From positions 310,001 to 374,000 of the forward strand of contig NZ_JAAIXY010000011.1 of assembly GCF_010894455.1 (NCBI RefSeq): 64,000 bases of DNA, written 5' to 3'. Below are positions 11,969 through 29,277 of the stretch, piece after piece. This DNA is from Myxococcus eversor (GTDB lineage: Bacteria > Myxococcota > Myxococcia > Myxococcales > Myxococcaceae). Position 1 is the first letter of the stretch. Every line of letters starts with the position of its first letter. The notes under the pieces are model-generated. The model was not told where the DNA came from. It worked only from the letters and a program-made list of their open reading frames with translations, and did not search any database. The position numbers were made by a program, and so were the translations under genes.

Positions 11969-12553
11969 TTACTTCTCCTCTTTGATGAGCTGCTTCGTGA
12001 GCTTGAGGTCCCACTTCAGATAGCTCGTGAAGTCCTTGAACCGCTCCTCTTCCCTGGCCAGGTCGAACAGGACGAAGTCCATCTCTCCCGTCCGGCGAGT
12101 CTTCGATGGGTCCAGGACGAGGTAGTTGCGGATGGTCTTCCCAATCATCACGGGCAAGGCGCCTGCCTTGAATGGGTCGCTGTCTCCTTCTTCCTCGAAA
12201 TGTCCCCCGAGGCTCGCGACACGCTTCTTCACCCAGGACTTCGACTGGTCCTCGATGGAGAGGATGGCTCCGTCGCCGTCGAAATCGGCCCATCCATCAT
12301 GGAGCTCGAGGAACGCGCGGTAGCTCGGAGGGAGCGGCCTGCCGAGCCTCTTCTCCAGTGCGGCGAGTTGCCTGGCGCTCGCCGGGTCTCCGACGTGTTG
12401 CTCCTCCTCGTCTTCCACGAGCAGGCTGTATTCACGCTTTGCCGCGATGAGGTTCTCCACCAGCTTTCGGACGTCGTCCTTGCTCACGGAAAGTGCCTTT
12501 CGGATCCAGTTCCGCTCGGTGGCATAGGCAGTGTGGTTGTCCAGAGTCCACAT
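11969..12553 (-). CDS. SMI1/KNR4 (SUKH) family protein with DUF2169-like N-terminus
   Basis: 194-aa protein. From about residue 45 on it has the SUKH fold signature: LAALEKRLGRPLPPSYRAFL followed by HDGWADFDGDGAI. SUKH proteins are often immunity proteins for secreted toxins. The first 17 residues (MWTLDNHTAYATERNWI) instead look like the start of DUF2169, a family linked to type VI secretion and other contractile systems. A GTG at 12487 would start the SUKH part alone. It lies 34 bp after the last gene of the tail operon on the same strand. Whether it is co-transcribed, and whether it protects from a toxin, is inference. Confidence 0.7.
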   Translation of the reverse strand: MWTLDNHTAYATERNWIRKALSVSKDDVRKLVENLIAAKREYSLLVEDEEEQHVGDPASARQLAALEKRLGRPLPPSYRAFLELHDGWADFDGDGAILSIEDQSKSWVKKRVASLGGHFEEEGDSDPFKAGALPVMIGKTIRNYLVLDPSKTRRTGEMDFVLFDLAREEERFKDFTSYLKWDLKLTKQLIKEEK

Positions 12554-15104: not shown

Positions 15105-15317
15105 TCAGCGAGCCGCTTCCTTGATGTCCGTCACCGTGGCGGCGGCGCCCTCGTTCTTCGCGGGCAGCAGCTCCTGGAGCACCTGCATGGCGCCCTCGAT
15201 TCGAAGCATCGTCTGCACCAGGTGCGAGCGCTTCGCCTCCAGCTCCGCCATCATCTTCTGTCCGGCTTCGTGCTCGGCCCGGAGGTCCGCGAGGCGCTTC
15301 TCAATCGCATCCATCAT
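15105..15317 (-). CDS. Small coiled-coil protein after the tail fibre
   Basis: 70-aa protein, almost entirely helical with heptad-like spacing (MDAIEKRLADLRAEHEAGQK and LQELLPAKNE). It overlaps the fibre stop codon by 4 nt (ATGA), so it is translationally coupled to the fibre. Small genes in this position in contractile phages are often fibre-assembly helpers, but sequence alone does not show this. Confidence 0.7.
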   Translation of the reverse strand: MMDAIEKRLADLRAEHEAGQKMMAELEAKRSHLVQTMLRIEGAMQVLQELLPAKNEGAAATVTDIKEAAR

Positions 15318-17071
15318 GACTTCAGCTCCTGGTTCTGGAGACGCTGCTCGAGCGCCGCCAACCGTTCGTCGTACTGCTGCTTGAGTTCCTTGAGGGCCGC
15401 GATGGCGAGCACGCTGAAGGCCTGGTGGGCCAGGCCCTTGATGACCTTGCCGCCCGCGGACTCCAGCTTCAGCTCGCTGACCAGCTCGGGGAACACGGTC
15501 TCCACCTCCTGCGCCACCAGGCCCAGGTTGAGGTCCCCGGTGTTCTTCCAGTTGAAGCTCACCGGCCGCAGCGCCAGCACGCGCGGGAGCACGTCCTGGA
15601 GCGACGTGATGTTGTCCTTCAGCGACGCGTCGGACGGGCCGCGCCAGATGCCGTCCTGCTGCATCCACTGGCCAAGGCCGTTGCTGTGGAACAGGTGGAA
15701 GTTGCCCTGGCCCTCGTAGCAGATGTCCATGAAGCGTCCGGAGCCGTTCTCCTGGATGCGCAGGCCCGAGTTGGAGGCCTGCTGGAGGATGTGCAACGGC
15801 GTGGACGGGCGGGGCGTCCCGATGCCGATGAAGCCATTGACCATCGTCATCCGGTCCGCGCCGGATTGATTGAAGATGATGGAGTCGCCCGGCTCGTTCG
15901 TGCAGGCGATGACCAGCCGGCCGTTCTCCTCCTCACCCGGCAGCGGGTTGGGCACGCGGTAGTAGCGGATGAAGGCCGCGTCTCCCGTGCCGCCCCACGC
16001 GTCCTCGGGGAACTGGATGCCATTGCCATTGGCGTTGCCGATGGAGGGCATGATGGCGCCGCTGACGCGCAGGCTGCCGCCCTGGACGTCCAGGCGGACC
16101 CCCGGCGTCGCGGTCGTGGTGCCGATGCCGACGCTGCCGTCCGCGCCCATCCACATCGTCTGGGTGCCGTTCACGATGAAGGAGAACGCGTTGCCCACCC
16201 GGGCGCCCACGTCCCAGAACAGGCCCGTGGCGACGCCGCCGCTCAGGCCGTAGCGGATGGACGCGCGGTTCTCCGTCTTGTGCCAGACGACGTGGGGGTT
16301 GTTGACCATCAGGCCCGAGCCGCCGCCGGCGCCGATGGTCACATGCGGCCCCCCGGCGCCCCAGTCATTCGTCGTGTTCACCACGAAGCGGTCGAACCCG
16401 GCGGCGGCCCCGGAGAGGCGGATGTCCAGCGCGCCCTGGGGGTCCGTCGTGTTGAGGCCCACGTTGCCGCCGGCCTTGATGTGGATGCGCGGCGTGCCCA
16501 GGCCCGAGCCCGTGTCCACGTCGCCTCCGTCCTCGGTGATTTGCAGACCGGTGGAGGCGGCGCCCTGCTCACCGCGGAGCTGCCAGCTCTTGGCGCGGCT
16601 CCTGAGCACCAGCCCCGCGCCCTCCGTGCCGCCGGTGGTCCGGATGACGGCGCCAATGCCCCAGCCCGCGGCATCGCCACTGTTCCTCAACTCCAGCGCC
16701 GCGTTGTTGCCACCTCCCGGCGCCACGACGAGCAGTCGCTTGGTCCCCGCCGCCGCTCCGATGCCCACGTTGGCCGTCACCGACAGCGCGCCCGTGAGGT
16801 TGCCACCCGCGAGGGCCAGCTTCTGGGTGTCCAGGGCGGTCAGCTTGCTGGCCAGGTCCACGCCAGCCACTGACAGGGAGACGGCCGCGTCCACCCGGCT
16901 CACCTTCAGCCAGGCGGTGGCGGAGATGCTGTCGCCATCCAGTTGCCGGCCGTCGTCGGAGCCCTTGTGGGTGTGCGCGCGAATCTCGTCGCGCGTCTTG
17001 ATCTGCATGTTGTTCCAGGTGTCCGCCAGGATGGGGTCACCGGACTTCGCGGGGTAGAAGGGATCACTCAT
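15314..17071 (-). CDS. Tail fibre with S74 intramolecular chaperone domain
   Basis: 585-aa tail fibre/spike-like protein. The N-terminus (MSDPFYPAKSGDPILADTWN; then HTHKGSDDGRQLDGDSI) is a typical baseplate-attachment segment. The body is Gly-rich with repeated short modules such as VGIGAAAGTKRLLV, VGLNTTDPQGALDI and VGIGTTTATPGVRLDV, characteristic of trimeric beta-helical fibres. From about residue 480, SDASLKDNI and LGLVAQEVETVFPELV mark a peptidase S74 chaperone domain, which in phage endosialidase-type fibres assists trimer folding and cleaves itself off. It ends in a coiled coil. It overlaps the preceding gene by 4 nt. It should decide what the particle binds. Confidence 0.9.
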   Translation of the reverse strand: MSDPFYPAKSGDPILADTWNNMQIKTRDEIRAHTHKGSDDGRQLDGDSISATAWLKVSRVDAAVSLSVAGVDLASKLTALDTQKLALAGGNLTGALSVTANVGIGAAAGTKRLLVVAPGGGNNAALELRNSGDAAGWGIGAVIRTTGGTEGAGLVLRSRAKSWQLRGEQGAASTGLQITEDGGDVDTGSGLGTPRIHIKAGGNVGLNTTDPQGALDIRLSGAAAGFDRFVVNTTNDWGAGGPHVTIGAGGGSGLMVNNPHVVWHKTENRASIRYGLSGGVATGLFWDVGARVGNAFSFIVNGTQTMWMGADGSVGIGTTTATPGVRLDVQGGSLRVSGAIMPSIGNANGNGIQFPEDAWGGTGDAAFIRYYRVPNPLPGEEENGRLVIACTNEPGDSIIFNQSGADRMTMVNGFIGIGTPRPSTPLHILQQASNSGLRIQENGSGRFMDICYEGQGNFHLFHSNGLGQWMQQDGIWRGPSDASLKDNITSLQDVLPRVLALRPVSFNWKNTGDLNLGLVAQEVETVFPELVSELKLESAGGKVIKGLAHQAFSVLAIAALKELKQQYDERLAALEQRLQNQELKS

Positions 17072-18462
17072 GACTGGAACCTCGAGGTATCGAAGCGGGT
17101 CGCGGAGAAGACGCCGTCCCAGGCGAGCTTCTCCTGGGGTTCGGGGAACTGTTCGTGCAACTCGATGGTGGAACCGAACGAGGTGAGCGCGTCCTTCGGC
17201 TCCAGCTTCTCGGCCAGGGACATGTCGACCTCCATCCGGAGGGTGCCCTCGCTCGCGACGAGCGTCTCGGGCGGCAGGGGGAGCGTGAACTCGATGCGCG
17301 TGCGCACTCCGGCGCAGCGGCCGTACTCCAGCGCCGCGGAGAGCTCCTTCACCAGTCCGGGCAGCCCGGGCACCACCTGGTCCTCGTTGGGCACCTGAAG
17401 GTGCGGCGGGACATGGTCGATGGGGATGCGCAGCGTGCAGGTCGCGGGCGTTATCTCCGTCCAGTCGAGGCGCAGGTCCGAGCGCGGCGTGTTTCGTTGC
17501 GGAAGGGCCTGGGCCACGGCGGCCGCGCGCTCCTCGGCGGACCAGCTGGTCAGATAGGAGGCGACCTGGTTCTGGTCCAGCGTGTCGTAGCGCCAGTGGT
17601 TCTCGCCCAGCACCAGGTCCGGGACGCGCTGGTTGTTCTCGAACACGGAGAAGCGGGCGTCGCGGGTGTCGAAGCGCGTCAAGACGCCCGGGTCCTCCAG
17701 GCTGGAGAAGCGGGTGGGGTGGGCCCGGATGACGGGATTCGCCACGGGGCTTCCGTCGATGAAAGCCGGTCGCTCATGCCGCAGGAGCAGCGTGGAGCCG
17801 AGGGGAACCTTGCCCAGGAAGATGAGATCGAGCCCCGCCTGCTCGTGGCGGAGGATGGGCACGGCGATCTCCCGCTCCGTCGCCTTGAGGGAGATGGCCG
17901 GCGATGCGACCTTCAGCCCTCCGTTGGTGGCGAGCACCCGCTGGCCGCCGCTCACGTTGCGGAAGCTCGCGCTCGAGGGCGTCGACGGGTTGTCCTCCAG
18001 CTCGACGCGGATGGTCCGCCAGGTGCCGTCCATGCGCGGCACGGAGAAGAGGCCGACCGCCAGGTCTTTCTCCCAGAAGATCTCCGGAGGCTGCCGCGCC
18101 ATGTAGACCAGCGACACGAGCCTCAGCAGTGCGGGCGCGGAGGCCATGCCGGTGCGGTGCAACTCCACCACCGTGGCGACCCGCTGACGGAGATAGTCGG
18201 AGGACTCTCCCGGTCGAGGCGCCAGGCCGTAGAGCGCGGCGAGCCGCGCCAGCTCCGAGCCCTCCTTGTCCTCCAGTGAGTCCTCGACGGGGAAGCCCCG
18301 CGCGAGCGCATGCCAGCGCGAACGCATCAGCCGCGTCAGGCCTCCCTCCATCTGCTCCAGCTCACGGGCGAGCGTGGAGAAGAAGAGGTTGATCTTCGTT
18401 CCCGACTGGAGAACGGGTGGGAGGTAGCCCACCATGCGACGGCTGCGTTGGTCCGCGCTCAT
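17068..18462 (-). CDS. Baseplate wedge/tail protein, P2 GpI or Mu gp48-like
   Basis: 464-aa protein starting MSADQRSRRMVGYLPPVLQS, with the early segment FFSTLARELEQMEGGLTRL, typical of the GpI-type wedge protein that ties the baseplate to the fibres. It is longer than P2 GpI (about 180 aa), with an added beta-rich C-terminal region. The order GpJ, GpI, fibre is the standard one in contractile tails. Start and stop overlap both neighbours by 4 nt (ATGA), showing a compact operon. Confidence 0.75.
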   Translation of the reverse strand: MSADQRSRRMVGYLPPVLQSGTKINLFFSTLARELEQMEGGLTRLMRSRWHALARGFPVEDSLEDKEGSELARLAALYGLAPRPGESSDYLRQRVATVVELHRTGMASAPALLRLVSLVYMARQPPEIFWEKDLAVGLFSVPRMDGTWRTIRVELEDNPSTPSSASFRNVSGGQRVLATNGGLKVASPAISLKATEREIAVPILRHEQAGLDLIFLGKVPLGSTLLLRHERPAFIDGSPVANPVIRAHPTRFSSLEDPGVLTRFDTRDARFSVFENNQRVPDLVLGENHWRYDTLDQNQVASYLTSWSAEERAAAVAQALPQRNTPRSDLRLDWTEITPATCTLRIPIDHVPPHLQVPNEDQVVPGLPGLVKELSAALEYGRCAGVRTRIEFTLPLPPETLVASEGTLRMEVDMSLAEKLEPKDALTSFGSTIELHEQFPEPQEKLAWDGVFSATRFDTSRFQS

Positions 18463-20039
18463 CCGACACCCACCAGCTCCGCCCCGCCGAACATCAGCTG
18501 GACGCCGGCCCGCACCGCGATCTGCGTCACCTGCGCGGGCAAGGTGTTGACGGGCGTCTGCGCCACGACCAGGGACACGGTGAGGCCGGTGTCCAGGGTG
18601 ACGTCGCAGCCCAGCAGCGCCTCGATGCGCGCCTGGGTCTTCAGGCTCTGCTGCAAGGAGTCGAAGGTGAGCTTCGCCTCGCGGCCCAGCTGTGCGTCCT
18701 CGGAGAGCCGCGCCGCATACACCTCCAGCGCGCCTCGCAGGGCCTCGCGCACCTGCTCCGGCGTGCGAGCCTCGCCATTGGACAGCGAGACGACCAGGCT
18801 CAGCCGCCACGTCGGCGCGCGCAGGCGGGTGATGCGCGGCGGCTTCAGGTCCAGGTCGATGCGCGCGGCCTCCAGGGGCTCCATCTTCCAGTCGCGGTTG
18901 GCGCCGTACTCGCGGCCCCCTGGCTCGAGCACGAGGACCTTCTGGAGGGAGGTCTCGGAGTCCGTGCCCCAGACAAACGTGGCCGCCAGCAGCTCGCTCA
19001 CCCGGCGCACCGCGGGGTTGCCGAAGAGGAGGGCCTCCAGCTTGCGACGGCTCACCGAAGCGCCCACGGCCAGCTCCCGCATGTAGAGCGCGAGCGTCTG
19101 CTGGAGCTCGCGGCGGAGCCGGTCGAACGTCGCCTCGTCCATCTCCGGATTGGTGGGCTCCACCTGGAAGTCCAACTGGAAGAAGATGGTCTTCGCGTAC
19201 TGGATGCGGACGTGGATGCCGGCGGCCTTCGTCTCCTGGATGGCGGCCTTGACGCGGAGCACGCCCTCGACGTCCGATTCGAAGTCGGTGTCGCCGACGA
19301 GGACATCGACCACGCCCGGAGGCGCGTCCGCGGGCTCCCTCACCGTGACCTGCTGCACGCCCTGCTGGCGCACGGCGGCGGCGATGGACTCCAGCGTGCC
19401 CTTCTCGCCGTCCCGCAGCGCCGTGCGCGCGCGCGCGCGGAGGTTCTCGTCCGTCTCATCGTCCGAGCCGCGCCGCAGGGGCGCCGGGTTGGTGACGGCC
19501 TCGATTCCCAGGATGGGCCTGGGCATCAGCGTCAGCCGGAAGGGATTGATGACGGGAGGCGACTCGACCGCGGCGCCCGAGTCGTCCTGGATCTCCTGCA
19601 CGGGGATGAGGACCCGCGTGTCGCCCTTGCTCAGGGTGGCGTCCTCGAGCGTCTCGAAGAGGGGCAGGGGCTTGCCGTCCGCCGCGAGGCCCGTCAACTG
19701 CCGCCCCGCGGGGATGCCGATGTCCTCTGGCGCGGGCGCGGCGCGGCTGAGCTCCACCTCTCCGGTGAGGCGTCCAGCGCGTGCGCGCTTCAGGCCCAGC
19801 ACGGCGACGACGTTGTCCAGCGCGGCGCCTTCCGCCGTGTCGAGGTAGCCGGAGCGGTGGGCCAGCTCCATCATGGCGTAGAAGGTCGCCATCTCCCGTG
19901 CATAGGCTTCGGCCAGGGTTCGCGCCATGCCACCGGCGTTGGGGTCCGTTCCCGGCCCCATGTTCTCCAGCAGCCGTTCGACGATGGCGCTGAAGGTGGT
20001 TGTCTCGGGAGGGATGAGGCTCAAAAGGAGATCTCCCAC
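18459..20039 (-). CDS. Baseplate wedge protein, GpJ (Mu gp47)-like
   Basis: 526-aa GpJ/baseplate_J family protein, a main wedge component of contractile tails. The N-terminal helical part (FSAIVERLLENMGPGTDPNA, then ARTLAEAYAREMATFYAMME) is followed by SGYLDTAEGAALDNVVAVLG, characteristic of the family (the LD...G...D.... lead into a beta domain with GIPAGRQLTG). GTG start at 20039; it begins 19 bp inside the upstream gene. It overlaps the GpI-like gene by 4 nt. Confidence 0.9.
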   Translation of the reverse strand: MGDLLLSLIPPETTTFSAIVERLLENMGPGTDPNAGGMARTLAEAYAREMATFYAMMELAHRSGYLDTAEGAALDNVVAVLGLKRARAGRLTGEVELSRAAPAPEDIGIPAGRQLTGLAADGKPLPLFETLEDATLSKGDTRVLIPVQEIQDDSGAAVESPPVINPFRLTLMPRPILGIEAVTNPAPLRRGSDDETDENLRARARTALRDGEKGTLESIAAAVRQQGVQQVTVREPADAPPGVVDVLVGDTDFESDVEGVLRVKAAIQETKAAGIHVRIQYAKTIFFQLDFQVEPTNPEMDEATFDRLRRELQQTLALYMRELAVGASVSRRKLEALLFGNPAVRRVSELLAATFVWGTDSETSLQKVLVLEPGGREYGANRDWKMEPLEAARIDLDLKPPRITRLRAPTWRLSLVVSLSNGEARTPEQVREALRGALEVYAARLSEDAQLGREAKLTFDSLQQSLKTQARIEALLGCDVTLDTGLTVSLVVAQTPVNTLPAQVTQIAVRAGVQLMFGGAELVGVG

Positions 20040-20509
20040 GTCATCTTCATGACCATGTTGGAGCCGCGATTGACCTCCTCGAAGCGGACCCGGTTGAAGA
20101 GGATCTTGGTGTTCTCCCCCAGGGTGACCTGGATGCCGGCCTCGGTGAGCGGCTGCACCGTGGCATCGGTGAGGGCGGGCAGGGTGGCGGTCACGAGGGC
20201 GCGCACCAGGCTGGGGTTGTCGCCCTGGTCGATGACCTCCACCTTGGGCGCCGGGTCCACGGCCTCGGCCGCCGGGCCCTTCAGCGCGATGTCATCCGTG
20301 GACGGCGCCGCGGTGCCCGTGCCCACGACGATGGACCAGTTGACGGGCAGCCCATTGACCCGGCCCATCAGCAGCTCGGCCACCAACCGCTTGCCCGCGG
20401 TGGTGATGAGGTTGGGGACCCGACGGCGCTCCATCAGCGAGCCATCCAGGTTGAGCAGCTCGAGGGTCAGCACTCCGTTCATGCCCTGCTTTTCCTTGCC
20501 GTTCATCAC
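20021..20509 (-). CDS. Small beta-rich baseplate-associated protein
   Basis: 162-aa protein with the pattern RRVPNLITTAGKRLVAELL followed by IVVGTGTAAPS, found in many phage tail-region proteins of unknown role. The C-terminal part is a run of beta strands. It sits between the gp25-like and GpJ-like wedge genes and overlaps the latter by 19 bp. No enzymatic motif is visible. A structural role in the baseplate is inferred from context. Confidence 0.65.
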   Translation of the reverse strand: MMNGKEKQGMNGVLTLELLNLDGSLMERRRVPNLITTAGKRLVAELLMGRVNGLPVNWSIVVGTGTAAPSTDDIALKGPAAEAVDPAPKVEVIDQGDNPSLVRALVTATLPALTDATVQPLTEAGIQVTLGENTKILFNRVRFEEVNRGSNMVMKMTWEISF

Positions 20510-20554: not shown

Positions 20555-20965
20555 TCAACCCAGGTCGAGCGCCAGTCCCAGCTCCACCGCTTCACCGGTG
20601 ATGGCCTTGATGCGGGCCCGCACATCCACCGCGCCCGGCACATCCGGCCGGGCCGTGACGCTCAACTGCGTCACCTCGTCCACGCGAGGGTCTTCCTTGA
20701 TGGCCTGCCGCACGTACCGGCGCAGCAGCTCCAGATTGGCGCGGTCCATCGGCTCGCCGATGAGGTCCGCCACGCGGCTGCCGTAGCGCTGGTGCCCCAA
20801 CTGCTCCAGGTGTCCCCGGTAGACGATGAGCCGCATCGTCAGGGCCTGGATGAGGTTGTCCTTGCCGCTCACCGTCGTCGCGCCGGTGTCGGTGGACCAG
20901 TCCAGGTCCACGCCGCCCGATTCGCTGAACTTCAGGCGCAGGTCCGTCTTGAGCTCGTCCGCCAT
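20555..20965 (-). CDS. Baseplate wedge protein, gp25/GpW-like
   Basis: 136-aa protein of the GPW/gp25 family. Recognisable pieces are DNLIQALTMRLIVYRGHLEQ and QRYGSRVADLIGEPM, followed by RRYVRQAIKEDPRVDEV. In T4 and related tails this subunit connects the wedge to the first sheath ring and starts sheath assembly. It overlaps the upstream gene by one base (TGATG), consistent with coupled translation. Confidence 0.9.
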   Translation of the reverse strand: MADELKTDLRLKFSESGGVDLDWSTDTGATTVSGKDNLIQALTMRLIVYRGHLEQLGHQRYGSRVADLIGEPMDRANLELLRRYVRQAIKEDPRVDEVTQLSVTARPDVPGAVDVRARIKAITGEAVELGLALDLG

Positions 20966-21615
20966 CAGAGCAACCTCCCCGGGCCCGCCGTCGCCCCGGG
21001 CGAGCTGGGAATGCCCGGGGACACCTTGAGGCGCGTCATCATCTGCGTGAGCGCGTTGGACAACGTCTCTGCCATGGCGCCCGCGAGGTCCGGCGCGTTC
21101 TCGCCCCGGATGCCGCCGGCCATGAGGAAGCCCAATGCAATCGGCTGGAGCATCGGCTTGGCGGGCGCGGCGCCCATGAGGCTGCCGGGCGACGACGTCA
21201 CGAAGCCGGCGATGGCGATTCCCGGCGCCACCATCACCTGCACGGTGAAGAGGATGAGGGCCTGCTCCACTGTCTGCGCGATCGCCTTCGCCAGCGCGTC
21301 CCGCTGCTCGCCGTTGATCTTGTTCGACGCGAGCAGGCCCTTGGCGATGGGCTCTATCTGCGACGCCCCGGGGCCACCGGCGGGCGGAGGCAGCATCATT
21401 CCGGGCCCGGCGGTGCTGCCCGCGCCCGGCGGCGGCGGCGCTGCGGCGGGGATACCCGGCGTCACCATGGCCATGGAGGCGAAGAGCGTGAAGGCCTGAC
21501 CGCAGGCGTCACCGAGCGCGGTGGCCAGGTCCGGGGCGTTCTCTCCCCGGAGGCTCGCGGACTGCATCGCGCTCTTCGCCAGGGCGCCTATTTCGCTTCC
21601 GCTCGGTGCAGGCAT
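20965..21615 (-). CDS. Baseplate-region protein with three internal repeats
   Basis: 216-aa protein without a recognised family, built of three homologous units of about 40 residues joined by Pro/Gly/Ala linkers. The unit signatures are RGENAPDLATAL...MVTPGIP, INGEQRDALAKAI...MVAPGIA and RGENAPDLAGAM...KVSPGIP. Each unit looks like a helix pair ending in a PGI turn. It lies directly between the GpV-like spike and gp25-like wedge genes (2-bp gap and 1-bp overlap). In eCIS and T6SS the PAAR tip or hub proteins occupy this region, but no PAAR motif is seen. A structural role at the baseplate centre is inferred. Confidence 0.7.
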   Translation of the reverse strand: MPAPSGSEIGALAKSAMQSASLRGENAPDLATALGDACGQAFTLFASMAMVTPGIPAAAPPPPGAGSTAGPGMMLPPPAGGPGASQIEPIAKGLLASNKINGEQRDALAKAIAQTVEQALILFTVQVMVAPGIAIAGFVTSSPGSLMGAAPAKPMLQPIALGFLMAGGIRGENAPDLAGAMAETLSNALTQMMTRLKVSPGIPSSPGATAGPGRLL

Positions 21616-21617
21616 GG

Positions 21618-22250
21618 TTACTTGGCCTTCACGTCCTTGGAGCCCTTAAGCGGAGCGCCGGTGAAGTAGCACTTGTGGCTCATCTCGGTGATGACGCCAC
21701 TGCCTCCCTTGCCCAGGTCGATCTTCCCGGACGCGTCCACCGTGCAGTCCGTGCACTTGAGCTGCACGTTGCCTTCCACCTCCAGCGTCAGGTCCGTCTT
21801 GCCCTTGATGGTGATGACGTCGTCCTGCTTCACCGTCACCACCGTCTCACCGGCGGTGATGACCACCGACTGCTCCTGGTCGATGGCGATGGACGTCTTG
21901 CCATTCGGAGGCGAGACGACGCGCCACTCGTCCGCCTCGTGGATGGGCGGGTTGAGCTTGTCCGAGTAGAGGCGTCCGGTGATGACCGGGCGGTTGGGGT
22001 CGCCGTTCAGGTAGGTGATGACGACGAGGTCCCCGGCGTGCGGCGCGCTCACCATGCCGATGTGCGGCGTGGCGATGGGGACGCGGCGCAGCTCCAGGCC
22101 GCTCTCGCGCAGCTTCACGTGGCACTCGTGGTTGTTCGCGTCGCCGTCCGCGTGAGGGAAGGCGCTCGTCACCACGCCCAGGTCGCCCAGGCGCAGCGAG
22201 GCCAGCTCGTCCCGGATGATGGAACGGATGATGGTGACCAGGTCGCTCAC
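21618..22250 (-). CDS. Baseplate spike, GpV (Mu gp45)-like
   Basis: 210-aa protein of the phage baseplate assembly protein V/gp5 type. An N-terminal helix (DLVTIIRSIIRDELASLRLG) leads into an OB-fold with the hallmark AGDLVVITYLNGDPNRPVIT, then GRLYSDKLNPP. The C-terminal part (SVVITAGETVVTVKQDDVIT and on) is a repetitive beta-helix stalk, as in membrane-piercing spikes. GTG start at 22250 overlapping the preceding stop by 4 nt (GTGA). No lysozyme domain is present, so this spike only punctures. Confidence 0.9.
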   Translation of the reverse strand: MSDLVTIIRSIIRDELASLRLGDLGVVTSAFPHADGDANNHECHVKLRESGLELRRVPIATPHIGMVSAPHAGDLVVITYLNGDPNRPVITGRLYSDKLNPPIHEADEWRVVSPPNGKTSIAIDQEQSVVITAGETVVTVKQDDVITIKGKTDLTLEVEGNVQLKCTDCTVDASGKIDLGKGGSGVITEMSHKCYFTGAPLKGSKDVKAK

Positions 22251-22801
22251 GTCGTGCCTCCCGCGAGCAGCGGCATCGTCCCAGCACCCAGCGACGGGGT
22301 GGACGGCGTGGCCGGCGGCGCGGCGAGCAGCGCCTCACCGAGCGCCTTGAGCGTCGCCTTGACGGCGACGACGGACTCGCGAAGGGACGCGAGGGACTGC
22401 TTGGGCAGGTAGCCCTGGAGGATGACGACGGCGCCGGCGCGCAGCTTCTCGAGGACCAGGTGCGCCGCGTGGGCCGCGCCAGCGAGCGGGGCGAGCGCCT
22501 CCATGCCCATGTCGCGCATCTCCGCCTCGGACTTGTCGCCGATGGCCTTCAGGCCCTCCAGCGCGGGGTCCAGTTGCTCCAGCAGGTCGGGGATGGCCGC
22601 GACCTGCTCCAGCTTGGCGATCCACCCGATGATGAGCTCCAGCGCGCTGCCCAGCGCGTCGACGCCCACCTTCACGGGGGCGCCGATGCCGAACCTGCGC
22701 ACCAGGCTGACGATGGCGTTCACCGTGTCCGTCTTGAGCAGGTTGTCCACGGCGATGACGAGTCGGGTGATGCTGTCGACGATGTCGGCGGTCGTGCTCA
22801 C
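22247..22801 (-). CDS. Helical protein of unknown role in tail operon
   Basis: 184-aa, almost wholly alpha-helical, amphipathic protein (ITRLVIAVDNLLKTDTVNAI; LGSALELIIGWIAKLEQVA) ending in a Pro/Ser/Thr-rich tail. It lies between the GpU/GpN-like and spike genes and overlaps both by 4 nt (GTGA), so it is certainly part of the operon. It has no family I recognise. It could be a hub accessory, an assembly factor or a cargo protein. Confidence 0.7.
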   Translation of the reverse strand: MSTTADIVDSITRLVIAVDNLLKTDTVNAIVSLVRRFGIGAPVKVGVDALGSALELIIGWIAKLEQVAAIPDLLEQLDPALEGLKAIGDKSEAEMRDMGMEALAPLAGAAHAAHLVLEKLRAGAVVILQGYLPKQSLASLRESVVAVKATLKALGEALLAAPPATPSTPSLGAGTMPLLAGGTT

Positions 22802-23682
22802 GGGAGGTTCTCCAAATCCTTGAAGGGCCCGAGCGGATCGAAACTGCCGATGGCCGAGCCCAGGGCGCCGGCTTCCTTGCCCACGGCCTGGAGCTTCGCG
22901 AGGAAGTCCCCGGCGCCGGCGATGCCCTTGACGATGTCGAGCGCGGCGCCCAGGTCCAGGCCCGTCATCTGCTCCAGGATGTTGATGCCCTCGGTGGCGA
23001 GCTTCTCGATGAACTCGCCCAGGCTGCCGGCCTGACTGAGCGACTGCACGAAGCCGATGATGGCGCCGGGGTTCACCTTGCCGAGCGCTCCCATCAGGCT
23101 CCCGAAGCTCTTCCCCGACAGCGAGCCCTTGGTGCCGTTGACCACCGAGCCCAGCTCGTCTGGTGAAAGGTGGCTGAGCAGGTCCGGATTCTCACCGACG
23201 GCGTCCATCAGCGACTCGGGGTTCTGGAGCACTCCCGCGGCGTCCGTGGAGCCCTTGGCCCAGGACTGCGCGTCGCCCGCCACGGCGTTGTCCACCGCGC
23301 CGACGCCCGCGTCCTGGGTGGCGGGGGGCTCGACGTACTCCTTGACGCGCAGGAAGAAGCTGAAGCGGTTCTGGTGGCCGGCGAGCTGACGGACCTGGAA
23401 GTCCGCGATGAGCACGTCGGTGAGGTCCGCGCCGGCGATGGCGTCCGAGGCGAACGACATCGGCGTCGCCTTCATCTGCGCCTGTCGCAGCTCCTCCAAT
23501 GCGGCCTGCGGGTCGTCGCCGAGCAGCAGGCCTTCCATGACGACGGTGACGGGCTCGCGGCCCAGGTCCTGGAAGACGCTGCCGGATTGACCGGGCACGC
23601 GCTGCTGCACGAGGTTGCGCGCGTCCTCGGTGTAGATCTGCGTGAGCCCGATGAGCTCGATTTTTCCGATACGGACGGGCAT
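22798..23682 (-). CDS. Tail protein with GpU / Mu GpN-like N-terminus
   Basis: 294-aa protein. The N-terminal 100 residues (MPVRIGKIELIGLTQIYTED; GREPVTVVMEGLLLGDD; LTDVLIADFQVRQLAG) look like the beta domain shared by P2 GpU-type tail proteins and the Mu GpN 'DNA circularisation' tail protein. The C-terminal 190 residues are low-complexity and helical (Gly/Ala/Leu). The ATG at 23682 is used because the domain begins there, 1 nt after the hub gene stop. In Mu the corresponding gene lies next to the hub gene, as here. Confidence 0.65.
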   Translation of the reverse strand: MPVRIGKIELIGLTQIYTEDARNLVQQRVPGQSGSVFQDLGREPVTVVMEGLLLGDDPQAALEELRQAQMKATPMSFASDAIAGADLTDVLIADFQVRQLAGHQNRFSFFLRVKEYVEPPATQDAGVGAVDNAVAGDAQSWAKGSTDAAGVLQNPESLMDAVGENPDLLSHLSPDELGSVVNGTKGSLSGKSFGSLMGALGKVNPGAIIGFVQSLSQAGSLGEFIEKLATEGINILEQMTGLDLGAALDIVKGIAGAGDFLAKLQAVGKEAGALGSAIGSFDPLGPFKDLENLP

Positions 23683-23683
23683 G

Positions 23684-24712
23684 TCAGAGTTCCATCCGGG
23701 TGGTGAAGCCCGTGAGGGCATTCAGGGTGTGACGCACCGAGCGGACGCGAAGCACCTTCCCGGACAGCAGGGCCTCCACGGGGTGGCCCTCCGGGATGTC
23801 GTCCACCTTCACGAGGTCGCCTGGCTTCACGGCTGGCGCCCCCAGCACTTCGATGAAGCCATGCAGCGGACGCGCGGCCAGCGCGCCCACGCGGGCCTTG
23901 GCTTGCGCGGACGCATCCGCTCCAGCGCGGACCGAGCCGTCCTTCACTTCGCGCGAGCTCTTGCCCGTGGAGCCCGCCTGCACCTTGCCGGTGGTGCCCA
24001 GCGCGGCCTTGCCATGGATGGAGGCCAGGTCGTCCACCAGCCAGTGCGCCTTCTTCTCTCCCTGGGAGCTGGCCGCGCCTTCGCCCCAGACCTCGAAGCC
24101 GTCGATGGCGGCGAGCGGCTTCGCCACCTGCGTGCGCAGCACCTGGGAGTCGTAGACGAAGGTGTGGTCCGCGCCGCCCTGCTTGGGCGCAGTGAAGTGC
24201 ACCTTGCCCTGTCCGTCCGTGAAGACGTCGAAGCCGCTCTGCTCCGCGAGCCGGAGGATGTGCCGCAGGGCGCGCGGGCCGCGATGGAGTACGTAGCTTG
24301 GGAAGCTGGGGCCGTCGTCGATGGTGCCCGGTGTGCCGCCTGCCTTGTTCACCAGCTCGCGGACGATGGAGCCCGCGGACATCTGCTCATAGGCGCCCGA
24401 CACGTCCAGCCGCGCGAGCTTCGCCAGGGCGTCGCCGCCGATGACGAGGGACGTATCCGTCGAGCCTCGGGCTTCCAGCACCAGGCCGGTGAAGACGGTG
24501 ACGGCGCCGTTGCCGCCATCCATTTCGATGGTCGTCTTGTCGCCCGGCGTGGGGAGGCCCGCGTCGGAGGGCACCAGCTCGACGGTGCACCGGCCGCCCG
24601 CGCCGTCCATGGTCAGCTCGCTGGTGATGGAGCGGATGAAGGCCTGCCCCTGGCGGGCCTTGTTGGAGGCTCGGAGCGAGCCGATGGTCACGGAGTATCC
24701 GATGCCGGCCAT
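23684..24712 (-). CDS. Tail hub protein, GpD (Mu gp44)-like
   Basis: 342-aa late control gene D family protein, the trimeric hub on which the spike sits. It shows the family layout: an N-terminal beta-barrel with TPGDKTTIEMDGGNGAVTVF and FTGLVLEARG; a middle domain with MSAGSIVRELVNKAGG and LRHILRLAEQSGFDVFTDG; and a C-terminal barrel with PAVKPGDLVKVDDIPEGHPV. It lies 4 nt downstream of the repeat-rich gene and 1 nt before the next. Length agrees with stand-alone GpD proteins rather than VgrG fusions. Confidence 0.9.
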   Translation of the reverse strand: MAGIGYSVTIGSLRASNKARQGQAFIRSITSELTMDGAGGRCTVELVPSDAGLPTPGDKTTIEMDGGNGAVTVFTGLVLEARGSTDTSLVIGGDALAKLARLDVSGAYEQMSAGSIVRELVNKAGGTPGTIDDGPSFPSYVLHRGPRALRHILRLAEQSGFDVFTDGQGKVHFTAPKQGGADHTFVYDSQVLRTQVAKPLAAIDGFEVWGEGAASSQGEKKAHWLVDDLASIHGKAALGTTGKVQAGSTGKSSREVKDGSVRAGADASAQAKARVGALAARPLHGFIEVLGAPAVKPGDLVKVDDIPEGHPVEALLSGKVLRVRSVRHTLNALTGFTTRMEL

Positions 24713-24716
24713 GGGC

Positions 24717-26411
24717 TCAGACCTCCAGTCCGTGACGGCGTGCCGTCTCGCGAAGGATGTCCACCAGCGTGTCTTCCAGCGTGCGCCGGTCCATGCCCGA
24801 CGTCGCGGTGTCGGTGCCCACCTGCACGTTCACGTTGAACGTGTTGCGAACCGCCGCGTTGGCGCCAGAGTCCGCGCTCGGAGCGGTGGTGGAGCGCGAG
24901 GAGCGGTCGATGGTGAGTGACTCGTGCGTGAGCTGCTGCGCTCGTTCGAGCACGGGCGTCACGCCCTGGTTGACCTGCCGCGCGACGTGCGACGTGGCCA
25001 GCGACGCCGGAGGCACCGCGCGCTCCGGCTCGGGCGACGACGAGGGAGCCACGGGCTCGGGCGGGGTGAAGGTGAGCCGGGCCTTGGGCCGTGGACCCGA
25101 GGGCGCGACGGGGCGCACCGTGGGCCTCGTCGCCACGGCCTCTGCCGGAGCGTGAGCCGCGGCGGGTGTCGTCGGGACGGCGGCCGGAGAATGGAGGGCG
25201 GCGGGCGTCGTGGACAGCACGCGCAAGACGGGGAGCACTGGCGCGATGCTCGTGCGCGTCTCGTTGGTGGCTTCGACGGGCGAGGCGGGGGGGCGTGGCG
25301 TGGCGCTCGTCGAGGTGACTCCCTCGTAGTGAGGGCCGACCACGGCTTCCGGAGCGTCGTGGCGCGGAGCGTCCGCGAGGCGCGCGGTGGGAGGACCGAC
25401 GCGCTGGACCGTGGGGCCGCTCTCCGTTGCTGGAGCCTCGGAGGGAGGCGGCAACGGCTGCATCAATCGGACGACCTTCTTCTGGAGGGGTCGTGGCTCC
25501 GGGGACTTGACGGAGACGCGGAGCCCGGAGGGCGCATCGCTGCTCGTGGCGGAGTGCTCCTCGGGCGCTCTGTGCGGTGACGGCGCGGACGCTGTCTCGG
25601 CGGTGTGACTCGAAGCAGGCGCGCCCTTGTCCGGGAGCTCCGAACGTCGCGAGGCGCCCGCCGAGAAGTCCGAGGGCAACGAGGACGCGTGCCGAGCACC
25701 CGACTCGGGCCACGTCGGATGGGGCGCTTGAGAAGTCTCGGGGCTCGCGTCGGCCGCATGCGCCAGTCCAGAGTCGCGCGGGCCGCTGGCCAAATGCCGC
25801 CCGATGCTCGTCGAAGAAGGCGTGAGGTCGCTGGCTGAAACGGGCGCGATGCTGTTCGTGGAAGGCGCCGACGGGTGCGCGAGGCTCTTCGAGGAAGGCG
25901 TCAGGTCGCTGGCCGAAGCGTGCGCGAGGCTCTTCGCGGAAGATGCGAGGTCGTTGGCCGAGGACAGCCCGGTCCGCTTCGAGGAAGGCGCCAGATCCAG
26001 AGGTGATGCGACCCACTCCTCGGACGCAGGACTCACGGACCCACTGACCTCGGAAGCGCGCGGGGCACTCGGCGTGACGGGGATGCGCGAAGACACGACG
26101 GACCTGGGCGCGGTGTCGGCGAGTGCCGTGGAGGCACCGGCGGCTCCAGGCCGAACCACCGGAGAGGACCGCGGCGCGAGCGGGCCCGAGGCCGCGTGGC
26201 CATGCGAAGCCGTGGCCCGCGTCTCCTCCACGGAGGGCCCCTGCGCGGCGTCGCCGCCAGGAGTCGCCCGCGAGGACTCCTCATGCGAATCAGCGTCCCG
26301 CGCTTGAGCGGGCAGCTTGACGCCGAGCTGTCGAGCGACCCCTTCGAGTGCTCGAAACGCCGGGCGGGCGAGTCGCGAGGTCAGCTCGGAGGTGGTGAAC
26401 GTCGTGCGCAT
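24717..26411 (-). CDS. Ser/Pro/Ala-rich protein, tape-measure position
   Basis: 564-aa protein. The ATG at 26411 overlaps the preceding stop by one base. Residues 1-30 form a short helix (TTSELTSRLARPAFRALEG); the middle about 450 residues are low-complexity Ser/Pro/Ala/Thr, including several 15-residue tandem repeats; the last 50 residues form a conserved-looking end (NTFNVNVQVGTDT, then RRTLEDTLVDILRETARRHG). It occupies the slot of the tape-measure gene, between assembly chaperone and hub, but lacks the long helical sequence normal for tape measures. Either it is an unusual length-determining protein or a disordered hub-associated or cargo protein. The function is not established. Confidence 0.6.
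   Translation of the reverse strand: MRTTFTTSELTSRLARPAFRALEGVARQLGVKLPAQARDADSHEESSRATPGGDAAQGPSVEETRATASHGHAASGPLAPRSSPVVRPGAAGASTALADTAPRSVVSSRIPVTPSAPRASEVSGSVSPASEEWVASPLDLAPSSKRTGLSSANDLASSAKSLAHASASDLTPSSKSLAHPSAPSTNSIAPVSASDLTPSSTSIGRHLASGPRDSGLAHAADASPETSQAPHPTWPESGARHASSLPSDFSAGASRRSELPDKGAPASSHTAETASAPSPHRAPEEHSATSSDAPSGLRVSVKSPEPRPLQKKVVRLMQPLPPPSEAPATESGPTVQRVGPPTARLADAPRHDAPEAVVGPHYEGVTSTSATPRPPASPVEATNETRTSIAPVLPVLRVLSTTPAALHSPAAVPTTPAAAHAPAEAVATRPTVRPVAPSGPRPKARLTFTPPEPVAPSSSPEPERAVPPASLATSHVARQVNQGVTPVLERAQQLTHESLTIDRSSRSTTAPSADSGANAAVRNTFNVNVQVGTDTATSGMDRRTLEDTLVDILRETARRHGLEV
25800..25995 (-). repeat. 45-bp in-frame tandem repeat inside the Ser/Pro-rich gene
   Basis: About four degenerate units of 45 bp encode 15-residue blocks such as HASASDLTPSSKSLA, LSSANDLASSAKSLA and PVSASDLTPSSTSIG. 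Units keep the frame, so changes in copy number would lengthen or shorten the protein without breaking it. Confidence 0.7.
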
Positions 26412-27271
26412 CAGTCGTCCTCCACCTGAATGACCACCGCGTCGGGAAAGTCGGAGAGTCCCCTCGGCCTCGGAGTCGGGGCCGGGGTGGGAGCACGAGG
26501 CTCCGTGAGCTGCAACATCGCGAGCAACCGGTCCACCTCGGCGGCGGGAGTCGCCCACACCTGGGAAGGCGTCCACCCCAGGGCACGACAGAGCTTCAAC
26601 GTCACTTCAGCGAGGACGCGGGACTCCTTGTCGGAGGCGCGCAGGGTGCGGTCTTCATCGCGCTCGTCCCCCGCGTTGAGCGCGACCACGGCCTCCAGCA
26701 GCGCGGCGGTGCTCGCGCCATCCAGCGTCTCCAGTGGCGCCGAGGGAATCCGCTCCACGACGGACACGGCGAGCATCGAGCGCAGGTAGCGCTCCAGGCT
26801 CAGCTCCTTCGAACCATCTGGCTGTGCGGTGAGGCTGTCCTCGAGCGCCCGGGAGCGCTCGGAGAAGGTCCAGGGCCGCAGCCGGGCACGCACGTCACCC
26901 GCCCGCACCCAACCCGGCGGCGGCGCCTGGGTGGAAGGCTCCTTCGCCCCACCCACGGCCCACCACAGCGCGAGCGGTGCCAGCTCCGCGTGGAGCGACT
27001 CCGGCACCCCCGAGTCCCGCAGCACATCGAAGGCGAAGCCCTCGGTATCGAAGGCCAGGCCCGCGCCATCCAGCCGCGCGTGCAGGTCGAGCGCCCGCAG
27101 GTGCGCCTCGAAGCTCCACGGATGGAGTGCGAGACGCTCGCCGGTGGAGCACTCCACCTCCAGCGCCCCGGAGCTGACTCCGGGGTGGAGGTGGAAGGTC
27201 CGGCCGTCGATCTCCAGGGAGATCGGCGCCGCACCGGACTCCGTGCTTGAGCTGGCGGGCGCCTCCCTCAC
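26411..27271 (-). CDS. Probable tail assembly chaperone-like protein
   Basis: 286-aa protein located directly after the tube gene, where contractile phages encode tail assembly chaperones. The N-terminal part is beta-rich (ISLEIDGRTFHLHPGV; STGERLALHPWSFEAHL). The C-terminal 100 residues are helical and contain VTLKLCRALGWTPSQVWATP, similar to the short helical motif of phage gpG-like/DUF6760 proteins. Ends with a Pro-rich tail. The stop overlaps the start of the next gene (TGATG). Function rests on position plus weak motif similarity. Confidence 0.6.
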   Translation of the reverse strand: MREAPASSSTESGAAPISLEIDGRTFHLHPGVSSGALEVECSTGERLALHPWSFEAHLRALDLHARLDGAGLAFDTEGFAFDVLRDSGVPESLHAELAPLALWWAVGGAKEPSTQAPPPGWVRAGDVRARLRPWTFSERSRALEDSLTAQPDGSKELSLERYLRSMLAVSVVERIPSAPLETLDGASTAALLEAVVALNAGDERDEDRTLRASDKESRVLAEVTLKLCRALGWTPSQVWATPAAEVDRLLAMLQLTEPRAPTPAPTPRPRGLSDFPDAVVIQVEDD

Positions 27272-27274
27272 GGC

Positions 27275-27664
27275 CTACTCCTCGCGGATGCGCGTCGCCG
27301 TGAAGGCGTACGTCGTGGCGGCGCTGCCGTGTGCGTCCATCTGGAACGACTTGCCCTCGACGAAGCAGTCGTCGAAGGACAGGGTGCGCGTGTCGTCCGT
27401 GCCCTCGGTGCGCTTGAGGTTCGCCACGAGCTGGAACTTGCCGCGCTCGGAGAGCAGGGTGTCCAGCTTCACGGCCGCGGAGCGGATGACCAGCTCACCG
27501 ATGACGGTGCGCAGGCCGAAGATGACGTCGACGCGCTCGTTGGAACCGATGGCGCGGATGTCCTCGCGCTCGGTGACCACTCGGAATGCGATGGATTGGA
27601 GGCCGTCCACGGCCTCTCCGTCGACGAGGATGCTGCTACGGTTGGCAGAGAATACCGTTGGCAT
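27275..27664 (-). CDS. Tail tube protein
   Basis: 129-aa beta-rich protein immediately downstream of the sheath gene, which is the invariant place of the tube subunit. It starts MPTVFSANRSSILVDGEAVD, followed by strands such as GLRTVIGELVIRSAAVKLDT and ends in SAATTYAFTATRIRE. This is like the single-barrel tube proteins of Mu/XkdM type, which polymerise as stacked hexamers to form the inner channel. 15 bp from the sheath stop codon. Confidence 0.75.
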   Translation of the reverse strand: MPTVFSANRSSILVDGEAVDGLQSIAFRVVTEREDIRAIGSNERVDVIFGLRTVIGELVIRSAAVKLDTLLSERGKFQLVANLKRTEGTDDTRTLSFDDCFVEGKSFQMDAHGSAATTYAFTATRIREE

Positions 27665-27679: not shown

Positions 27680-29050
27680 TCAGACCTGGACCGTGATGGT
27701 CGCGTAGATGTAGTCGATGGCGCGCACGGGTCTGACGGCCATGTTGACCCTGACGATTCCGAGCGCGAAGTCCGCCTGCGAGGAATAGACCTCCACCTTG
27801 AAGGCGGGATCCTTCCCGTCGGTGGAGGGGACGATGGCGCCGTCCTTCTGCATCTGCACCAGCGCCTCCACCAGCTTCTGCTTCAGGGCACTGCGCCCGT
27901 CGGCGTTGTTGAGCAACCCGATGAACAGGTCACCCACCATCTTCAGCGTGCGCACCGCGCGGTCCGCCACGCGGCGGACGTTGATCTGGTCGCCGTCCGT
28001 CGTCAGGCCGCGCACCACGATGGTGCCCCGGCCGCGCTCCGTGACGACGGGGACCGTGAAGGCACGCAACAGCGCCTTCTGGTCCTCCACGCTCACCAGC
28101 GTCTCGTTCAGGCCGGAGACGCGCTTGAACGTGGGCGACTGGTGCGGCGCCAGGCTTCCCACCAGGCCGGCGACCGCGCCCACCGTGCCGTGGGGCGCGA
28201 CGAGCACGAACCTGTCGCTGACCAGGTTGGAGGCGAGCTGGGCGTTCTCCACCAGCGTCCCGGCGGGCGGGACCTGCCCGAAGCCGAGCCGGCCCTTGCT
28301 CTCGCCGCTCAGCGTGTTGCAGTGGCTGATGACGTCGCCGTAGATGCGCGTCAGCTTGGCCCGGTCGGAGAAGTCCTGCACCGCCGCGAGCACCAGGTCC
28401 ACGTCCGGCTGGTCCTTCAGGCGCCCCAGCGCGGTGGCATAGTCGTCCGGCGTGGCGTCCTTGCCCGTGGCGAGCGTGTACGTGCCCGCGGTGGGCCAGC
28501 CCACGCCCTTCGTGGTGTCCACCTTGATGAACGACGAGGTGTCCAGCGTCGACGTCAGCGACGCCGAGTTGACGTTGCGCAGCACCTCCACCGAACCGCT
28601 GGCGGGGTGGGTGACCTCCACGTCGAACGAAACCGTCAGGTCGATGTTGTTCCGGTAGGTGACCTTCAGCGTGATTCCGTTGGCCCACAGGCCCGGAGCT
28701 CTCGCGATGAACGTGGCGCCGAACTTGTCGCCAACGTGCCCCGGCGGATACTTGCTGTTGTCGGCCGCGACGGCGATCGACGCGACAGCACCGGCCGTGG
28801 CGGGCAGGGGCGAAATCACCAGCTCGGAGACGCCATTGTCCAACGCCTGGCGCGCCTCCGGGAGGCTGTAGGCGCTCGCGCGTCCGGCCACCTCCAGGAA
28901 GCGAGACCAGCTGCTGGCGCGGACGACCGTGCCGTTGGCTGACTCCAAGAAGCCTGTGATTCCAAGAACCCCAGACGGTGCAAGCTGTTGGGGCAACACT
29001 TCCTTGACGACCGTGACCTGGACACCAGGAATGATGAGACCTGTGGCCAT
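27680..29050 (-). CDS. Contractile tail sheath protein
   Basis: 456-aa phage tail sheath-type protein. The start MATGLIIPGVQVTVVKEVLP shows the typical PGVYV-like sheath N-terminus; the central part has VDLVLAAVQDFSDRAKLTRI and SDRFVLVAPHG; the C-terminal domain that interlocks the rings includes RGRGTIVVRGLTTDGDQINV and a terminal VRPVRAIDYIYATITV. ATG 29050 has GGGGAG at the right distance. It is the first gene of the operon. Sheath contraction would drive the tube and spike through a target envelope. Confidence 0.92.
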   Translation of the reverse strand: MATGLIIPGVQVTVVKEVLPQQLAPSGVLGITGFLESANGTVVRASSWSRFLEVAGRASAYSLPEARQALDNGVSELVISPLPATAGAVASIAVAADNSKYPPGHVGDKFGATFIARAPGLWANGITLKVTYRNNIDLTVSFDVEVTHPASGSVEVLRNVNSASLTSTLDTSSFIKVDTTKGVGWPTAGTYTLATGKDATPDDYATALGRLKDQPDVDLVLAAVQDFSDRAKLTRIYGDVISHCNTLSGESKGRLGFGQVPPAGTLVENAQLASNLVSDRFVLVAPHGTVGAVAGLVGSLAPHQSPTFKRVSGLNETLVSVEDQKALLRAFTVPVVTERGRGTIVVRGLTTDGDQINVRRVADRAVRTLKMVGDLFIGLLNNADGRSALKQKLVEALVQMQKDGAIVPSTDGKDPAFKVEVYSSQADFALGIVRVNMAVRPVRAIDYIYATITVQV

Positions 29051-29061
29051 ACGCTCCCCGA

Positions 29062-29077
29062 CCCTCGCATGCGAGGG
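29062..29077. promoter_or_regulatory. 16-bp palindrome in the sheath leader
   Basis: The perfect palindrome CCCTCGCATGCGAGGG lies a few bases upstream of the sheath ribosome binding site. In RNA it can form a hairpin next to the Shine-Dalgarno; in DNA it could be an operator. Which role it has, if any, is not known. Confidence 0.5.
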
Positions 29078-29277
29078 GGTCGAAAACCCTGCTCCGGGTG
29101 CAGGTTCCCTGGACCGCGTACCTGGGCTCACGCCCACCCCTGGCGGGGCACGGTCCTATTCATAGACACTGGATTGAGAAAAGCGTGCGCAGGGCCGTGA
29201 CGACACGCTGAATACACTGGCGGCGAGCCAAGACGCCCGCGACACACCAGGAACCGTGACAGACGACTGGGGTTGAA

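Follow-up and report, generated by a model that had tools for sequence, protein, structure and literature searches.

A protein of three similar units encoded between the spike and wedge genes of a myxobacterial contractile tail locus, and its likely counterpart in phages

What could a protein made of three similar units do beside a trimeric spike? The question is raised by a contractile tail locus of Myxococcus eversor, located in the window (the whole stretch of DNA analysed here, 64,000 nucleotides of a genome of 11.4 Mb), in which a gene here called X lies between the genes for a GpV-like spike (V) and a gp25-like sheath initiator/wedge protein (W). From this arrangement, the initial annotation had proposed X as a candidate symmetry adaptor, collar or spike cap that resembles no described family.

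The tail locus and the triple unit of protein X

The locus, on the minus strand, spans roughly 29.8 to 12.6 kb and is arranged in the order sheath, tube position, hub, spike V, X, W, 162-aa protein, J, I-position protein and S74 fibre (all window coordinates given below are on the minus strand). The contractile sheath (27680..29137) matches Phage_sheath_1C (E 3.4e-7), while the tube position (27275..27664) and the I-like protein position (17068..18435) are named from gene order, neither having a Pfam match. The GpD-like hub (23684..24712) is a weak match (E 0.01) with relatives in the myxobacterial loci L102-L104 and L107-L108, and is followed by a DUF6046/DNA_circ_N-like protein (22798..23721) slightly below the Pfam cut-offs. 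The 210-aa spike V (21618..22250) matches Phage_base_V (E 8.8e-7) and has Pvc8, Afp8 and VgrG among its sequence relatives in the PDB. W (20555..20965) matches Sheath_initiator under the Pfam cut-off (E 5e-6) and phrog_975 (E 3.2e-16). Downstream are the 162-aa protein (20021..20509), which matches phrog_5417 (function unknown), the baseplate J-like wedge (18459..20039; Baseplate_J, E 1.7e-11; phrog_6, E 7e-36) and a fibre (15314..17071) whose C-terminus carries, according to Pfam, a Peptidase_S74 domain, an intramolecular chaperone domain. Among the 20 window ORFs scanned, none has a Pfam match to capsid, portal or terminase families and, as far as these 20 ORFs indicate, this would be a tail locus without a head.

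Several other features of the locus and of related genomes can be recorded here. A 619-aa frame rich in Pro, Ser and Ala (24717-26576), without Pfam match, lies at the place expected for a tape measure, between a 286-aa ORF and the hub gene. At its downstream end the locus carries, on the same strand, a SUKH/SMI1_KNR4 protein (11972-12487; PF09346, E 2.9e-11), a family often associated with toxin immunity; two other genomes (G122 and G141) have different genes at this end. The window genome contains six gp25-like matches, five above the Pfam cut-off and that of the present locus below it. Further contractile systems are present in myxobacterial genomes (L102, L103, L104 and L110-L114), with PAAR or other proteins between spike and W where the spike was seen.

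X is an open frame of 216 aa with an ATG start (20965..21615). It starts 2 bases past the stop of V, and at its other end one base is shared between its stop and the start of W. The protein is identical, or nearly so, in M. llanfair... strain AM401 and in M. qinghaiensis. The triple repeat in X is real. Its units, of about 65-75 aa each, correspond to residues 1-75 (21391..21615), 84-147 (21175..21366) and 152-216 (20968..21162), and each includes a GE motif (starting at residues 24, 102 and 171) and a V.PGI motif (51, 129 and 198) that opens a conserved tail, V.PGI...PG.L. Local alignment of the units gave scores of 89 (units 1 and 2), 118 (units 1 and 3) and 103 (units 2 and 3), to be compared with shuffle maxima of 61, 58 and 46, respectively; no pair had its score equalled in any of 2000 shuffles, in agreement with the repeat originally described. 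The spacing of 75-85 residues given in that description holds for the first interval (78 residues) and not for the second (69 residues), both motifs giving the same values. Identity with unit 3 is 36-38%. X lacks histidine and has one cysteine. Values of dN/dS between 0.11 and 0.37, obtained for 11 chosen pairs among the 22 three-unit genes, point to purifying selection on the frame.

The structure predicted for a single unit, from an alignment of the three units only, consists of a helix, a GE-bearing loop, a long helix and an unordered tail, with pLDDT block means of 75-84 for residues 1-40 and below 50 in the tail. This bears out the helix attributed to the units in the initial annotation. 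The model of the whole monomer, a prediction suggested there, was of poor quality (mean pLDDT 42, from alignment rows that are all near-identical) and was set aside. Fold searches with the unit model returned no significant match, and profile searches of the PDB gave nothing. In Pfam, NCBIfam and PHROGs, no family matches X above the chance level; a Pfam hit to Xre_MbcA_ParS-like_N (E 0.05, below the cut-off) covers 19 residues only and was rejected. No credible homologue of X emerged from direct searches of phages, plasmids and IMG/VR. The literature search covered contractile injection systems or tailocins of Myxococcus and phrog_5576 (see below); none of the papers listed concerned X as judged from their titles and the beginning of their abstracts, and phrog_5576 yielded no paper.

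X is present in 24 of 195 Myxococcota genomes, all from one family, and these loci represent a single lineage. In all 24 it is located between V and W, where spike tip, X and W directly abut one another, and a single-unit profile gives three matches per genome. This count leaves out weak matches in sets of 3, 3, 10 and 3, which fall in frames other than X, 106 to 1411 aa long; the dropped set of 10 (E 8e-4 to 0.0073) corresponds to 7 of 31 genomes tallied, and the last set of 3 came from a 27-genome tally. These 24 genomes also contain a W of the window type (E <= 6e-40), and weaker relatives occur both in them and in seven others. A search of the 195 genomes with the tip motif of the spike alone retrieved again the same 24, plus one weak match with an internal stop (G064, E 0.0067).

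X is encoded as one 216-aa chain in 22 of these genomes. In the other two (G029 and G141), units 1 and 2 share one ORF of 147 aa (149 aa as called in G141). A separate ORF, which begins within the end of the first one, encodes unit 3 and is called at 70 aa in G029 and 69 aa in G141; this separate gene is the counterpart of unit 3 in loci L107 and L109. In a tree of the units, which is based on few columns and has many unresolved forks, units of both forms cluster by position (SH-aLRT 99 for unit 2 and 89 for unit 3, unit 1 not forming one branch), which suggests that three distinct units predate the parting of the one-chain and split forms.

Spike tip type and a small neighbouring protein in phages

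The C-terminus of the window spike carries an unusual tip motif, SHKCYFTGAPLKGS; the corresponding feature at the end of V (21621..21698) reads GVITEMSHKCYFTGAPLKGSKDVKAK. The motif, HKCYFTGAP, is of a type that can be written CxFTGxP, and four columns (C, G, P and S) are invariant in 12 aligned tip regions, that of the window included. The apex domain of P2-type spikes (GpV Apex, PF18946) was not listed for this spike at E<=10.

A search with the window tip produced a weak match (E 1) to a Helicobacter prophage, BK070047, whose spike ends in GVVTTECICAFTGSPHPQGS. After the spike gene of this prophage come a 69-aa ORF and, where W would be expected, a baseplate assembly protein. The 69-aa ORF is a member of phrog_5576 (E 1.3e-17), a family of unknown function that also includes gp17 of Vibrio phage VP882 and a counterpart in Vibrio phage VHML. 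In the VHML record this slot (the position between spike and W) holds an open 65-aa frame at 2246-2443 (L124) that is unannotated.

The association between tip and small neighbour was then counted in both directions. Sampling IMG/VR by the tip, we found a small helical neighbour of about 65 aa, of the phrog_5576 type, in 65 of 68 loci with tip-bearing spikes; two of the other loci (L312 and L324) are cut off at contig ends, and one (L302) has the tip without a slot-type ORF detectable by profile. Among the 65 slot-type ORFs identified by profile, 63 are downstream of the spike gene and two upstream, and in 60 loci, counted by eye, the start lies at most 40 bases from the spike stop. Sampling by the slot protein yielded 83 distinct proteins, 81 of them with a readable upstream ORF, and the tip type was present in all 81 (58 by the strict pattern, 23 as variants judged by eye). 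These two counts are not independent, since the tip query was built partly from phages found via the slot protein, which favours agreement, and since some of the 68 contigs recur in the slot sample; L312 and L320 share one contig, and no such duplicates were removed.

Departures from this rule were seen in individual phages. In four Helicobacter prophages (L117, L120, L266 and L269) the small helical gene precedes the spike gene instead of lying between spike and W; a terminase gene is located not far downstream in these elements. L270 has the tip and lacks an annotated slot gene, three loci (L121, L264 and L265, which were not searched by profile) have the tip without a recognisable small neighbour, L268 has a slot protein without the tip in the preceding ORF, and the slot of L275 is taken by a 219-aa protein that looks unrelated. 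Eight P2-type spikes ending in HxH (L118, L123, L125, L127 and L271-L274) have no small slot gene annotated between V and W, one of these loci (L272) having a GpU-like gene there. Since L302 and L270 show no slot gene and the eight P2-type spikes do without one, the slot protein is dispensable for some such spikes. Its presence largely tracks the spike tip type, and gene order thereby offers a hint at the function of a widespread phage protein without a name.

Two of the 68 tip-sampled loci, L305 and L320, encode slot proteins of 188 aa composed of three units, directly after a spike of the tip type. For five of the six unit pairs in these two proteins none of 1000 shuffles reached the observed score, and 2 of 1000 did so for the sixth. 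The phage slot profile clearly matches them, at E 1.2e-14 and 2.9e-17, respectively, and marks two units on L305 and three on L320, the third weakly. Sixty other tip-sampled slot proteins are single-unit by length, L368 (179 aa by frame) being kept out of the unit count as ambiguous. A search among named phages with the L305 protein yielded no such three-unit form.

Probable relationship between X and phrog_5576

Homology between X and phrog_5576 is likely rather than demonstrated, the comparisons of sequence profiles being suggestive. In the first comparison, 15 X units against 10 phage slot proteins gave E 0.0044 and a score of 18.2, which none of 200 column shuffles reached (maximum 17.5); single pairs were no better than shuffles (the best pair scored 56, a value attained in 2 of 300 shuffle sets, whereas no set attained the mean), and rotated phage profiles that keep the core together reached up to 19.3, the others giving 12.6-16.0. 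With 61 X units and 24 phage slot proteins the comparison gave E 8.5e-4, a probability of 24% and a score of 21.1, reached by none of 300 column shuffles (maximum 14.5), the reversed control scoring 15.1. When 12 families from the same loci were ranked by their score with the X profile, the slot family came first (19.2, the next 14.9); in this ranking 14 of the 133 frames of the slot cluster were foreign, and slot members only gave 20.1.

The X-unit profile was also run over 1039 ORFs from the 68 loci, in which all 17 matches at E<=1 were slot ORFs. Twenty column-shuffled X profiles gave 0-4 matches on the same ORFs, 0-3 of them slot ORFs. The reversed X profile gave eight matches at E<=1, seven of which were slot ORFs, so that helix composition explains part of this enrichment. 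In the opposite direction, the phrog_5576 model was not listed for the window X at E<=10, gave E 0.36 with a two-unit X homologue and, over the 195 Myxococcota genomes, picked out no X locus at E<=1 among many chance matches; direct sequence similarity of X to this family is thus below the usual level of significance. The view that X has no described family stands with respect to curated families, none in Pfam, NCBIfam or PHROGs matching X above chance, and has to be amended in that the one-unit phage family phrog_5576 occupies the same slot.

Proposed role and comparison with known spike systems

The reading that we favour, with a probability of roughly 0.55, is that X is a fused-trimer relative of the phage slot protein that works with the GpV-type spike on its threefold axis, either during assembly or in the particle. 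X would be a covalently fused trimer of a small module made of a helix-loop-helix and an extended tail. One-unit phage slot proteins would associate as three copies on the spike, and a single chain of X would fill these three positions. It would bind the spike trimer on the threefold axis, most likely while hub and tip assemble, where it could stop fresh spikes from sticking together or guide them into the wedge ring; it may also remain in the particle as a pseudo-threefold ring. The occurrence of the same tip type beside phage slot proteins, together with the two viral three-unit versions, is consistent with a three-unit chain serving a threefold partner. The initial idea of a symmetry adaptor gains partial support from these observations and from the linkage of X to the spike gene in 24 of 24 genomes, X being a putative contact of the spike. 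A collar role was dropped, as nothing links X to the head-proximal end or neck.

X could also be a soluble chaperone for spike and hub assembly that is gone before the particle is done, its three units serving as arms for three spike subunits. Its small size, helical character, Pro/Gly-rich linkers and location 2 bases after the spike gene would all fit such a role, as would the related phages whose eight P2-type spikes lack such a gene. The good conservation of the tails, both those of the X units and those of the phage relatives, suits a fixed contact, although it is compatible with a chaperone, and we consider this account possible rather than probable.

A third account, in which the three units have nothing to do with spike symmetry and result from a drifted tandem duplication, X being a baseplate linker or a cargo-loading protein, seems unlikely to us. 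The nearly exclusive one-unit state of phage slot proteins and the low identity of the other X units with unit 3 speak for it; against it, exactly three units are found in 24 of 24 genomes, the 2+1 splits included, and the two viral multi-unit proteins also have three. We disfavour most the interpretation of X as a tip cap that replaces PAAR as a single pseudo-threefold chain on the spike end, the sense in which a spike cap had been proposed, and set it aside because the window spike has its own tip motif, which the examined PAAR-bearing spikes lack, and because X is without metal ligands (no His, one Cys), without a PAAR match and predicted to be helical, even though it occupies the slot of PAAR or PAAR-like genes (L039, L126, L276 and L110; weakly L102 and L103; L104 by likeness) and PAAR itself is described in PMC10715212 as pseudo-trimeric at the spike.

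The occurrence of three-unit forms in two settings predicts the stoichiometry of the phage slot protein ahead of any structure, and the question of which proteins form and guard the tip of contractile injection machines becomes accessible to tests.

A PAAR or PAAR-like gene between spike and W is clear in L110 (PF05488, E 1e-22) and under the cut-off in L103 (E 0.015) and L102 (E 0.008), and in the latter locus another gene, 250 aa long, separates the PAAR-like gene from W; the slot gene of L104 is a near copy of the PAAR-like gene of L103. PAAR is annotated in the slot in HRTV-11 (L039), Wolbachia phage WO (L126) and AcaML1 (L276). The spikes of these seven loci have no tip motif. Two other myxobacterial loci, L105 and L106, have a protein of more than 500 aa in the slot and likewise a spike without the tip. 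PAAR (PF05488) resembles X in occupying the same gene slot in related systems, and according to PMC10715212 it meets the trimeric spike as a single chain with pseudo-trimeric symmetry. X differs from it in having no PF05488 match at E<=10, no histidine, a single cysteine and a predicted helical structure, and in accompanying a spike with a tip motif of its own.

The self-sealed spikes of the P2 type (GpV Apex, PF18946) resemble the window spike in having their own C-terminal tip motif. In the P2 and R2-pyocin spikes a metal is held at the tip by histidines, as described in PMC10715212; the window spike departs from this type in that its motif is HKCYFTGAP and not an HxH end.

The closest counterparts of X are the phage slot proteins. 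A phrog_5576 protein is similar to an X unit in size (about 65-69 aa) and, as judged from sequence and not from a model, in its succession of helix, loop, long helix and G-rich tail; it is also encoded next to a GpV-type spike with a CxFTGxP-type tip, mostly between V and W. It differs in having one unit in nearly all cases and a tail that is mostly GSSAGTYKV instead of V.PGI...PG.L. The slot proteins of L305 and L320 share with X three units in one chain, after a spike of the same tip type, and differ from it by their clear match to the phage slot profile and the absence of V.PGI, W being unrecognised in these two loci. We tentatively consider that these proteins could point to a third, so far unnamed way of finishing a spike, beside the added PAAR cone and the HxH apex of the P2 type: a CxFTGxP apex would act jointly with three small helix-hairpin units, which myxobacteria and some phages would carry as a single pseudo-threefold chain, much like the single-chain PAAR.
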